Position numbers and translations under genes: made by a program. Below the pieces are notes generated by a model. The model saw only the letters and a program-made list of their open reading frames with translations. It did not search any database and was not told where the DNA came from. Shown here in pieces: positions 10,194 through 49,100 of a stretch of DNA of 64,000 nt (position 1 is its first letter; every line of letters begins with the position of its first letter). Source of the DNA: Steinernema hermaphroditum (taxonomy: Eukaryota > Nematoda > Chromadorea > Rhabditida > Steinernematidae); contig CM059624.1 in the NCBI GenBank assembly GCA_030435675.1, positions 10,626,769 to 10,690,768 on the forward strand, read 5' to 3'.

Positions 10194-10312
10194 GACATTT
10201 GCGCCACAGACATTTGCGCCACCGACATTTGCGCCACTGACATTTGCGCCACCGACATTTGCGCCACCGACATTTGCGCCACCGACATTTGCGCCACAGA
10301 CATTTGCGCCAC
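10194..10312 (+). repeat. 15-bp iteron array, 8 units (left end)
   Basis: Eight head-to-tail copies of GACATTTGCGCCACN; only the last base varies (A, C or T). Confidence 0.95.
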
Positions 10313-11327: not shown

Positions 11328-11401
11328 GTGGCGCAAATGTCTGTGGCGCAAATGTCTGTGGCGCAAATGTCGGTGGCGCAAATGTCGGTGGCGCAAATGT
11401 C
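11328..11401 (-). repeat. 15-bp iteron array, 5 units (right end)
   Basis: Five copies of GTGGCGCAAATGTCN, the reverse complement of the left-end iteron. Confidence 0.95.
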
Positions 11402-43218: not shown

Positions 43219-45300
43219 ATGTCCCAAACCCTCAGAAGAAGGCGTGCTTCTGAGCTCGTCAATCAGCCAGACGTCCTTCTGCTGGTCCTCGCCAGGTAGA
43301 ATGGCTGAGAAAGTAACCCGTTTACCGGAGCCCTCCCTTTAGATGTGACCCGGTGACGGTGTCCAGATGCCGCAACGTGTGCCGGAGGTGGCGCGAGACC
43401 ATCGACGGCGCCCTCGCCTCGAGGTACGTCGATGAGTTGAACCCGCAAGGAGTGCCTCTGCTCCGCGCCTCCGAGGGCCACGGGCGCATCATCATCTGCG
43501 ACAGGCGCCGCGCCATCCTGGAACGCATCAACGAGGACCAGGACGCGGAGACCTCACAGGCCGGCTCGCTCCAGGGGGCCGGACGCGTTCAGTCCTCGCC
43601 TGAACTCTGCATGCCCCTGGAGACAACCCTCGCCTGCGTCAAGATGAGCGCCCTCCGCAAGGCCGAGGAGCAGCGAGCCCGTCGCGGGTGGACCGTGAAG
43701 AAGGCGACCTTCTGGAAGGACCAGTACGCGCACCAGGGCATCGCCGGCTGGTCGTTCAAGTTCGACCTGAGCAACTGGATCAGCTGCTTCGAGGTTGACG
43801 AGGTGTGGCTCGAGAACTTCGGCTCCTTCCTGGAACGCAGCACCGCCTGCCACTCCGACCAGGGCTCCATGTACCCGCTCTACGATAGCGAACAGAAACA
43901 GGGAAACGCGAGGAATCCATTTGTAAGTTGTTTACATTCCTCTTCCCTTCTCTTACAAAACAAGAACCACAACTAACTTCTAGTTTCGCTGTTTATCTTC
44001 CCACTCACGTGCCTTCATTGTTTTAGCCGACTCCGCCACACAGCCAGGAAGCACTAAAAGGGTCGCCTCGGGGGAATGCCGTCGCCGCTGGGGCCCACAG
44101 ACCGGTTTCGCCGCCGACGCCCATTGTGCCTGCCGTCCAGAATCCGCTCGTCGTCCCTTCGGCGATCCCCACCCTCCACGGTCCCGCCAACGTCCCCTAC
44201 AACATGTTGCCCTCGACACAGGTGGCCAGAAGCCTCGACGCCGAGGACTCACGGCAGCTCATCCTCGACGACCAGGCCTGCGCCGACATGGCCCGCATCT
44301 CCGGAGGCCGCTTTGAACGCCTCGTGCAGCAGCTCAGCGACGTGTCGCCTCTCCACATCGTCTTCAAGGACCACTCCCTGTACCCCCGTCGGCCGACGAT
44401 GCTCCTCTTCTGGTTCCTTAGACAGTAAGTCGCCTCTCCGCCGGAGAACCAGTCTAATTGGCGCTTTTTTAGGCTGAAAGCCAATTTGCGGAAAGTAACT
44501 TTCGACAGCGTGCAGGGAGAGCAACGCGTCAAACTCGAAAACGTCCTCGACCTCACCGCCATCGAGGAGCTGAACATCGTGCAGCCCCCCAAGAAACCGG
44601 CCATCGAGATCGACGCCGACACCCTCACAGCCTTCGCCGACAGTCGCCAACACATTCCCAACCCCCGACCCTTCCGCCTCAGAATATGCGGCAAGACGGG
44701 ACTCACCGCCGAAGGCCTTCTCAACTTCATTAAGGTACGGTCGCACCCCGTTCAAAAACAAAGCTGACTGTTTCTCTTCAGAAATGGCAGAACCAGCCCC
44801 AACTGGTGAGGTTCGACTTCATCCAGGTGGACACGGAGAGCGTCTCCCTGAACGACTGGATCCAGGAGGTGTCGAAGAACGCGAAGCTCAACCAGCCCTG
44901 CGAGAGCGATCTTGACAAGATCAACAAGACCTTCTGCTTCCGGCACTTGAAGACGCACTGCCGTATCCGTTATCGCTACGAGAACGGTTACCTCTTCCTC
45001 TCGTTCGTCGACCCCACCGAGGAGGTCCGCCACCGCACGATCTCCTCCTCGTCCACCTCCTCCACCAACGAGGCCCAGCTGCCCTCGCTCTACTCGAGCG
45101 GCTACTTCTCTAGCCATGGCGCTCATCGCCAGAACTCCTCCTCGTCCTCGTTCTACTCGTCTTCCTCCTCGCGCAAAAACTCGCACGACCGAAGATACAT
45201 GCAGAACGAGTACGAGATCCCCGGTGCGGCCGAACTTCCGGCCAGTGAACCCTCGATGATCCACAGATTCTTCAACTATATACTCCGCTCAAACGCCTAA
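43219..45300 (+). CDS. F-box protein, 5 exons, 611 aa
   Basis: Exons 43219-43295, 43343-43922, 44027-44424, 44473-44734 and 44782-45300 join in phase; introns are 47, 104, 48 and 47 bp with canonical ends. The N-terminal F-box spans about residues 13-49: QPDVLLLVLARCDP, then RCRNVCRRWRETIDG, with the usual hydrophobic core, Cys and Trp. F-box proteins recruit substrates to SCF ubiquitin ligases through Skp1. The rest (about 60-525) has hydrophobic, leucine-rich stretches resembling the F-box-associated C-terminal regions common in nematodes (RKVTFDSVQGEQR; RFDFIQVDTESVS), but the domain family is not certain. The last 80 residues are Ser-rich and disordered, ending FFNYILRSNA. Codons are almost all G/C-ending. 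The first exon stays open upstream to an acceptor at 43119 (ccttgcag), so extra N-terminal coding is possible. Confidence 0.85.
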
Positions 45301-46124
45301 ACCCTCCCGGTCACTCTATCTATATGTATAGAACTGTTGTGTCAAATCGCCTGTACATACTCTCCCTATCGTTTCTGAATTTTTGCTCCCAAATAATCTA
45401 TCGAAAACGGGTATCCGATTGATTGAAATGCTCTAAATTAAATTAGCTACTTTCTTTCCGCTTTTCTCTTTCGGTCACTTGCACTGTTACCCGGGCTTTA
45501 CTCTCGCCAACCCGATGAACGTCCCCTGGTTGTGTGGCTTTAAGCCCTCGGGCAACAACTCTCTCCTCCGATATGGTACAACAATCAATCAGTGCAACTG
45601 ATCTCCTCTATCGAAACTGCTTCCCCTGTACATAGCCTCCTCCTTCTTCCCTCCCTCCTTCCGCCCTATCCATCGACAACCACTATTTGCTCCAAACCAC
45701 GCTCCATACTCCAACCCGACGAAAATCTTTCCATCACCACAGTGTCTTTGCTTAATTTATTAATTATTTGTTTTCTTCTTTCCACCTGAGAAATGCTTCA
45801 ATAAGATATCTCTCTCTCTCCTTCCCATTATGTACATAGCACCTGTGCCCCCTAGACGTCAAAAGTATTGTTTCGAGTCCGAAGAGTTCTATCGACTGTT
45901 TCTGTACATACACCCTCGATGACCACTTTTGTTTCTTGTTTATCCGACAGCTTCAACCCAGATGAACCCATCCGTTCACGTCCAACTCTCGATATGGTAC
46001 ATTCTGACCCGACTGTCTTCCAAGTGTTGTCAACTCTCCTTTCCCCTACTGGTTTGTACATACTTTTCCTTTCCGCTATGTTGAAAAGAAATGAAAGATA
46101 ATATCCACAAAACACCTTAATAAA
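45301..46124 (+). promoter_or_regulatory. Long 3' UTR with five PUF sites and poly(A) signal
   Basis: Downstream of the F-box stop codon, TGTACATA occurs exactly five times on the sense strand: 45352-45359, 45627-45634, 45831-45838, 45903-45910 and 46055-46062. This matches the Pumilio/FBF recognition element UGUANAUA. The 12-mer CGATATGGTACA occurs twice (45569-45580 and 45990-46001), 58 and 65 bases before two of the PUF sites. A canonical AATAAA is at 46119-46124. No coding frame explains the region, which is C/T-rich. Confidence 0.75.
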
Positions 46125-49100
46125 GCGGTATTTCTTATGTTTGCTGTGTAAATCAAAGGGCGCCACATCGAAAGATAAAACTAAGGAAATGTCAACAAGG
46201 AACTTTAATGGGTACATAGGTGAGACACTTTAATGCGTTGCCGATACAGTACTTTGACCGATTCACAGGGGGGTATCCTTGGACGTACACGTAGGAATGC
46301 GGTGGCCGAAGTCCAAGCGTACAAACACAGAGATCGATGTTATTTCTATTCACAAACAAAACATATCTGCAAGCGATCCAACAACAAGAAGTGACTGATA
46401 CTGATAACATCGGGGAATATTCCAAACCGACGGAAGATACACATTCAGTTATTTATTTAGAGATGATCGTAGCCGACGGAGTTGTAATGTATTCGTTTTC
46501 GTCTTCCGGCTTAGTTCGCCTAGTTCCTTTTGCCACATCTTCTGCGGCTATTTTGTCGCGACTACCGTAATAAAACGTGACAAAAAGGGGTTCCGGACAT
46601 GCCTCACTTTTGTGGTGTGTTGTTCGTATTTGATGGTGAAATTTACGACTTATTGTTCACCTTTATGTGTTCCATCGAGGAACTTTTGTTCAAAGATCCC
46701 TTTATCAAATTAAATAAACCTTGACAAATTGATTCTCAACCTTCCTTTTCGAGCTGTATCTGTCTGTGCCAACTTTTTGCACCTTGGACCCGAGAGATAT
46801 TCATACCGAGTACATCGATCTTTCTCTGCCTCTACGTGGCAGGCATTCTGTGTCGGAGACGACAGTCAAGTGCACTTTCTTCTACCCAAAACGCAACACA
46901 GATCGTTTTTACTGTAACTTCCTTTCCCATCGATCCATCACCATCTTTTAACACTCCGGTACGGAAGGGGAATGCTGTGAAAAACAGAAGACATCAAAGG
47001 ACGTGCAGATTGTAAGGCCAAAAACGACCATTATCCGCTTCGGCTCTTATCAATCGAGGACCTCGTTTGCACCTTGCTCTCGACTCCGAAACAAAACAGA
47101 AATCATTCGATCGTGACTTCACGTGGCGCTCCGTTTTTCCGCTCAATTAGCCTTCTGACTGACGGCTGGGTCATGTGACCGGATCACAGCGTTTTTTTTC
47201 TGTATTCGACAATACAAAAGGCACAAAAGCGACGAATTCACTTGGATTACATTACGATCGTCGCCGTCCTATGCTGGCATCAAACACCATGGTAATTCGG
47301 CGTCCGACTCTTCCGATCGATTCACCACCATTCATCTGCAGCAACTCTCCACAGCAGCTCTTGTCACTTCGGATGAGAATCATGTCGCAAAAATCGGCAA
47401 AAATAACGCCAGAAAATAAGCGTTAGCGGGCTAATTTCGCTTCGTAATTGGTTCCGTTGACGTCAGCACCGTTCCACGAGTGTCCAGAACGTCGTCGTCG
47501 TCTCTTTGTCTCCAAACCCGATTCCTCGCGCACCGTCTTCGCGCGTCGCCTAAGGGAAGTGCAAAAGTTTTACTGTAACAAAGGCCCATTTTTTACCGAA
47601 ACGGCGCCACTCTACTTTACGACCGCTACAAAGGTCGAAGTAGAGAGGGCACAAGAATCTCAGAGTTGTTGATGGGAGCGAGGTGCATACTCCTAGCGTG
47701 CTGCCGACAGTCGGACGCCTCGAAGGTGATAAAACGGACGGAAACGCGTGGACATGCCAGTTGGCGAAACGGTAAAAATAAAAGGGAGAAGAGGCGCCCG
47801 ACAGGCGACAGGAAGAGTCATGTTGACTATCTGAGAAGCGGGGGTAAATAGGAAATAAGGAAGAAGAAAGGGACGAACTTATATGAAAAATGGATCAGCT
47901 CCGATTTTTAGAATTTCGATGGTGATTTTGAAATGACAAGGAATATCGAGGTAAATGCACAGTTGGAATTGGGGAGTTGAATCCCTGGCGATTTATTTTC
48001 GCTTAGTTAGTCGAGATCCACTTCTGGAACACTACCCAGAAATAAGGTGTCGAGCGCTTGGGTCATTCGCTCATTCCCTCAGAAAGGAGTTCATTGAGCC
48101 GCCATCGGAACCCGAAGCCTAGGTCCGCGCTGTCAGCAACCGAAGATGGCTCTGAGCTTCGTTCGCTGTCAGCCTCTTAGCCGTAATCAGCTCCTTTTCC
48201 TCCTCCATTTCCCGCAAAAATTGAAGGCATCCTCCGACTTTGATGGTGCCGCAACTATGATGTGATATACTCCTCTTCTCTATGCTTATAGGTCCTGAAC
48301 GGATGCCGTTGATTTCGAAAGATGACCCCACAAAGTGCTAATGCACAGGTACAAGAAAGAACCTTTCTTCAGATCTTTCAATGTAGTTTTGCTGTTTTTT
48401 TTGTTTGCAAAGTATAACGAATCCTGAATACGAAATCTCGATACAACAAAAGAACTTTGTACAGTTGTTTTCAACGGGATGTATAATCCGTTCACCTTTT
48501 GCGTCGAATCGGCGCCGATCGTCCTGAAAAACATCGCCAGAAACACAGAAGGGTCTTGTAGTACAAACAGGCATGTGACCGATACTCAAGTGCTTCTGAA
48601 TCTCTGTACAGACAAATAATATTCTACACACTTTCAGATTCCGATCACTGTTCGTTGAACAGTCCAGACGATCCACAGTGATCTACAGTACGTCGGCGAT
48701 TATAAGAACAACAGAAATATGTGCAAATACAGGGAGCGAGCGTATGGTTGTCCCCCGATTTCATTCACTTTTGGTGCTCCCCTTAATTTTCAGTTTTTTT
48801 TAAAGAAATCAAGGCCTTCCGATCTGTCCAGTCTCTGAGAGTTATGGGAAAGGTTACAGAAACAACCCGCATTCGATGATCAGTTGCTGTCACCGTAGTT
48901 TAAAGAAATCATCTTCAACAACTAATTTCACATTTAACAACTGACATCCATCTCAGTCCATTCATTAAGATTATTTTCAATTTTATCTATATTTTGGCAC
49001 CGTTCCAAAGTACGGTCTTTTAGGGCTGTCATCCAGTCGCTTGGCTCTCATGATAGTGTACACGAAAACATGTGCCCTGATAATGTTTCTGCAGTGTTTT

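Follow-up and report, generated by a model that had tools for sequence, protein, structure and literature searches.

The closest described nematode system is the ced-3 mRNA of C. elegans, whose 3'UTR carries six PUF-8 elements; in vivo binding of this mRNA by PUF-8 is described, with faster turnover as the proposed effect (PMC10565243). Where that paper deals with animals in which the six elements had been edited it describes no large corpses in the embryos, and elsewhere, for a particular context, it attributes to them an increase from 13.9% to 45.5% (PMC10565243). In Drosophila, the sequence UGUACAUA is known as hunchback PRE2, which was crystallised with Pumilio and to whose recognition Nanos contributes according to the same source (PMC4995099). 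A reporter containing three UGUACAUA elements is reported to be repressed by PUM1/2 in human cells (PMC4947167). With respect to target length, PUF-8 and PUF-9 are given as binding an 8-nt element, and FBF as binding the 9-nt sequence UGURNNAUA (PMC6351103). Among F-box adaptors, PROM-1 of the C. elegans SCF(PROM-1) complex is described as genetically linked to PUF control (PMC9479330). A search of the open-access literature yielded nothing on Steinernema PUF proteins; the titles found with Steinernema and Pumilio were off topic, and no title concerned the sites presented here.

The locus compared with these systems lies in a window of 64 kb, meaning the whole stretch of DNA which was analysed, located at C4:10626769-10690768 of the 90.6-Mb genome of Steinernema hermaphroditum. 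All positions below refer to this window unless another location is given. The TAA stop codon of an F-box gene, QR680_006068, ends at 45300 and is followed by a predicted 3'UTR with five identical putative Pumilio binding elements:

43219..45300, + strand: F-box gene QR680_006068, splice model with an open frame of 611 aa
43219-43295, 43343-43922, 44027-44424, 44473-44734 and 44782-45300, + strand: the five exons of the F-box gene
45301..46140 (about 840 nt), + strand: predicted 3'UTR, taken to run from behind the stop codon to about 15 nt past the single sense AATAAA
45352..45359, + strand: Pumilio binding element 1 (putative), exact match to TGTACATA
45627..45634, + strand: Pumilio binding element 2 (putative), exact match to TGTACATA
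45831..45838, + strand: Pumilio binding element 3 (putative), exact match to TGTACATA, inside TATGTACATA
45903..45910, + strand: Pumilio binding element 4 (putative), exact match to TGTACATA
46055..46062, + strand: Pumilio binding element 5 (putative), exact match to TGTACATA
46119..46124, + strand: AATAAA, predicted poly(A) signal, which would keep all five elements in the mRNA, then TGTTTGCTGTG

An initial sequence-only reading had reported five exact sense copies between the F-box stop codon and AATAAA, roughly 70-280 bases apart. Both observations were reproduced: all five copies are located between 45300 and 46119, and the start-to-start spacings are 275, 204, 72 and 152 nt, a range of 72-275. 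As element 3 is contained in TATGTACATA, an antisense TGTACATA at 45829 overlaps with it. In its RNA form the repeated word reads UGUACAUA, and the Pumilio consensus UGUANAUA is matched by all five copies. Any base is tolerated at position 5 of this consensus, and all five elements have a C there. The counterparts of TGTACATA differing at this position are TGTAAATA, with an A, as well as TGTATATA and TGTAGATA; besides TGTACATA, no other form of the general pattern TGTANATA was found on the sense strand of the predicted 3'UTR.

The likeness to ced-3 consists in many Pumilio-class elements within one 3'UTR of a nematode mRNA, whereas the ced-3 elements were recognised by motif scan in a target of another class and the F-box UTR has five identical 8-mers as putative sites (PMC10565243). 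With hunchback PRE2 the F-box UTR elements share exactly the same 8 nt (PMC4995099). As in the PUM reporter, in which repression was PUM-dependent, UGUACAUA is repeated, but the reporter is an artificial construct with three sites while the F-box UTR has five natural, widely spaced putative ones (PMC4947167). The resemblance to SCF(PROM-1) is that of a likely F-box adaptor (PMC9479330). Taken in this company, the F-box UTR is a strong new example of the well-known Pumilio control.

The predicted 3'UTR is rich in pyrimidines (33% T, 30% C), and no coding segment over the score threshold was found in 45301-46140. Outside the 8-mer no base is common to all five copies on either side, and when aligned over 19 nt the copies are 74-84% alike. 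The AU content of the site flanks is 0.42-0.60 and thus not especially high. Predicted accessibility of the five sites was ordinary, at the 41st to 60th percentile among the 8-mers of the UTR, and a special accessibility was therefore dropped from consideration. An Rfam element as explanation was likewise dropped, as no Rfam family reached its gathering score in the 64-kb window. The same 3'UTR contains a 12-mer, CGATATGGTACA, twice (45569-45580 and 45990-46001, at a distance of 421 nt); it may represent a second element.

The product of the splice model agrees with the database protein QR680_006068 (611 aa) at 100% identity and 100% coverage. An F-box (PF00646) was detected at residues 17-47 (E 5.3e-6, 26.6 bits at a cut-off of 20.5), and F-box models are matched, with an E of at most 0.1, by nine of ten aligned proteins, QR680_006068 among them. 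Within the genus, the S. glaseri relative is 83% identical in the alignment and that of S. carpocapsae (L596_011975) 71%; more distant relatives are found in the ascarid and oxyurid nematodes Toxocara, Parascaris, Anisakis and Enterobius. No C. elegans protein name occurs in the homologue set, which comprises ten proteins including the query, three of them without a name. All four matches of a genome search at E 0.001 or better fell on the gene's own locus; with no second gene locus at this threshold, a paralogue with a comparable UTR was ruled out. The AlphaFold model of the protein is poor (mean pLDDT 56), with alternating helices and strands ordered at about residues 300-525, and since a PDB search gave no match at E 0.001 or better, kinship of an adaptor fold to a solved structure found no support. 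Given the poor model and the empty PDB search, it is the F-box which carries the reading as an SCF adaptor. Of the earlier description as an SCF adaptor mRNA the F-box domain was thus recovered, while an SCF role beyond this domain found no support; from its sequence QR680_006068 is likely a ubiquitin-ligase (SCF) adaptor.

The cluster was compared with chance in several ways. On both strands of the 64-kb window TGTACATA occurs seven times versus 0.59 expected, and none of 100 shuffles reached seven. Among simulated UTRs of 840 nt, 4000 from an order-1 and 4000 from an order-2 model, none contained more than one copy. With the order-3 model, into which the words of the motif itself already enter, two or more copies arose in 330 of 4000 runs, four copies in three runs and five in none. 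The Poisson chance of at least five copies in one such UTR is 3e-11 at the genome density of TGTACATA (4573 in 2 x 90.6 Mb) and 3e-6 if the density in UTRs is taken as ten times that of the genome. Apart from words of two 15-bp tandem arrays, TGTACATA is the only + strand 8-mer of the window to reach five non-overlapping copies within 760 nt. The five-site Pumilio-class cluster is real and statistically strong. As for the two arrays, they are located at 10194-10312 and 11328-11401, have GACATTTGCGCCACC and its reverse complement as 15-bp units, and are inverted with about 1 kb between them.

Across the genome TGTACATA was counted 4573 times and the backwards word 2619 times. At a distance of 30-60 nt from AATAAA, TGTACATA was found 187 times sense upstream, 96 times sense downstream and 82 times antisense upstream (binomial p of 7e-8 for 187 vs 96 and of 1e-10 for 187 vs 82), with a few places counted repeatedly due to overlapping AATAAA words and at least two copies of a dispersed repeat or its kin included. 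Judged by this distribution, TGTACATA behaves as a sense-strand 3'UTR element in S. hermaphroditum. Pairs of TGTANATA spaced 40-70 nt occur 127 times in the genome versus 53 times for the backwards pattern. A dispersed repeat which starts with TGTACATAAGAACGATGAATACTTTG and ends in TGTAAATA, present for example at C1:2121635, C2:6643452 and C3:3687035, inflates these pair counts. Its copies were left out, which concerned 28 of the 100 pairs listed among the 127 and 13 of the 30 loci L033-L062. From the 72 other listed pair places 32 were examined, namely 30 in 29 classified rows, the F-box gene, and locus L064.

Classification relied on a codon-usage score for which the F-box and Pumilio genes were the only training set; it placed 15 of the 29 non-repeat pair loci within 700 nt past a coding stop on the same strand. 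Three of the 29 lay in the corresponding zone of the opposite strand, all three also being in the sense zone. Within the window, this 700-nt zone after a stop accounts for 7% of strand positions; its share was 9-25% for three further stretches and 23% across the loci L063-L075. For the C-C pairs, a set which by our reading is complete among the pairs listed (16 places at 15 loci, F-box gene included), nine of the 14 loci besides the F-box gene were in the sense zone and five could not be assigned to a 3' flank. L063-L067 had first been chosen by eye as pyrimidine-rich, and the remaining listed C-C pairs were added later; L047 was dropped as a duplicate of L065, and L072a, labelled C-C in the classification, is C-T. 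Locus L064, outside the 29 rows, has three sites in a sense 3' flank. Five TGTACATA (L063:2105-2367, C4:15737104-15737366) also occupy a second predicted 3'UTR, in which stop codon and AATAAA are 355 nt apart, so that the F-box UTR is not unique; the two scored exons of L063 had no Pfam match at 0.001.

Two TGTACATA are found right behind the stop codon of a gene at L066:2187-2570, which by eye we take to be Yippee-like (no Pfam match at 0.001). The region L072 (C4:2371000-2377500) is almost without coding signal and contains 20 TGTANATA, all on one strand, in a satellite-like manner. Many genomic TGTACATA seem to lie outside UTRs. None of the first eight C1 copies among the matches listed had a sense coding segment upstream within its 3-kb locus, and a single genomic TGTACATA therefore means little.

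The same genome encodes cognate Pumilio proteins. A search for PUF repeats, with 17 matches at E 0.001 or better, pointed to at least three places, two of them on C1 and the third on C3. The two C1 genes, C1:7013939-7015539 (L030) and C1:7020844-7022447 (L031), are oriented against each other at a distance of about 5 kb, and their duplicated stretches are 96% identical over 1604 nt; the pair is either a recent duplication or an assembly artefact. The two encoded proteins are near-identical, and both have eight repeats with the residues SR-Q, NY-Q, CR-Q, NH-Q, CR-Q, NY-Q, SN-E and NY-Q. By the PUF code we take these to read A8 U7 A6 N5 A4 U3 G2 U1, which is UGUANAUA. Such a reading is in line with the code as presented in PMC6351103. 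The closest solved relative is human PUM2 (3gvo, E 5.5e-119), and in the alignment over repeats 1-7 its base-reading residues are identical to those of the C1 Pumilio proteins. The third PUF gene, at C3:6357460, is divergent and has S-H-E in the presumed repeat 7.

With five exact copies in its predicted 3'UTR, the F-box mRNA is a good candidate Pumilio target and is likely kept in check by Pumilio of the worm itself. We consider it probable that the Pumilio proteins of the worm bind several elements of this cluster at once and repress the mRNA. Following the precedents of hunchback, the PUM reporter and ced-3, this would be a multivalent binding to several UGUACAUA elements which leads to deadenylation and repression. 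Pumilio repression has reportedly been linked to deadenylation in one study (PMC5909466). Bound Pumilio would, as in other members of the family, recruit the deadenylase machinery, possibly with Nanos; the poly(A) tail would be shortened and translation reduced, and production of the F-box protein, and with it of an SCF ubiquitin ligase, would be confined to places or times at which Pumilio is scarce or displaced. Having five sites would render this repression steep and robust to the loss of any one of them.

Within the predicted 3'UTR there are two possible weak poly(A) signals, the use of which could yield shorter mRNAs with most of the sites lost:

45437..45442, + strand: ATTAAA, possible weak poly(A) signal, would keep element 1 only
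45800..45805, + strand: AATAAG, possible weak poly(A) signal, would keep elements 1 and 2

Alternative polyadenylation at these hexamers might leave the elements real but mostly bypassed, with one or two sites retained and the choice of isoform serving as control. Three of the five sites are indeed downstream of 45800; within 45301-46140, however, the one canonical AATAAA in sense orientation is that at 46119, which has a U/GU-rich stretch behind it, and a bypass of this kind is unlikely. It is quite unlikely that another trans-factor acts on UGUACAUA, be it a divergent PUF, a different RNA-binding protein or a pairing small RNA. The divergent PUF gene on C3 could provide such a factor, the C at the fifth base of all five copies is more uniform than the permissive Pumilio consensus demands, and UGUACA is self-complementary, which makes pairing between molecules possible. 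What the five copies have in common, however, is exactly the Pumilio consensus with no flanking base in addition, two canonical Pumilio genes are present, and the window lacks an Rfam family at gathering score.

A chance or repeat-borne cluster without function is very unlikely: TGTACATA does occur in the dispersed repeat and in the satellite-like array elsewhere in the genome, but the F-box UTR copies share no base beside the 8-mer and diverge over 19 nt as given above, simulation and Poisson estimates are far below chance, and the sense-strand UTR signature is genome-wide. The sequence-only reading had left the class of control as Pumilio/FBF, and SCF(PROM-1) is placed under a PUF hub in C. 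elegans (PMC9479330), from which an FBF-type control like that of the C. elegans germline stem-cell and sperm/oocyte switches might be proposed. The sense strand of 45301-46140 contains, however, neither UGURNNAU (TGTRNNAT) nor UGURNNNAU, FBF recognises 9 nt, and no homologue among the ten is named as a C. elegans protein, three being nameless. In the absence of the FBF core from this strand FBF-type sites were ruled out and FBF-type control is not indicated, which makes this reading extremely unlikely. The Pumilio part of the proposal found support in the exact 8-nt Pumilio/PUF-8 elements, the matching proteins and the sense 3'UTR signature.

Pumilio repression through the five-element cluster is thus the preferred reading, and by analogy with the family a use of this putative switch in the germline or embryo would be plausible. 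A wider version, rather unlikely as a whole, would have the recently duplicated Pumilio pair run a UGUACAUA regulon with the F-box mRNA among its most heavily loaded members. In such a Pumilio-to-SCF switch, translation of the adaptor would be released and a fate regulator thereby cleared, in the germline or the early embryo, in an insect-killing nematode which is consistently hermaphroditic.

The analysis provides well-defined and strongly predicted candidates for Pumilio targets, one of them a likely ubiquitin-ligase adaptor, in a nematode which parasitises insects, stands outside Caenorhabditis and has genetic tools reported for it. If confirmed, the finding would connect translational control with protein destruction in Steinernema, and would help to ask which of the two logics, Pumilio or FBF, came first in nematodes.
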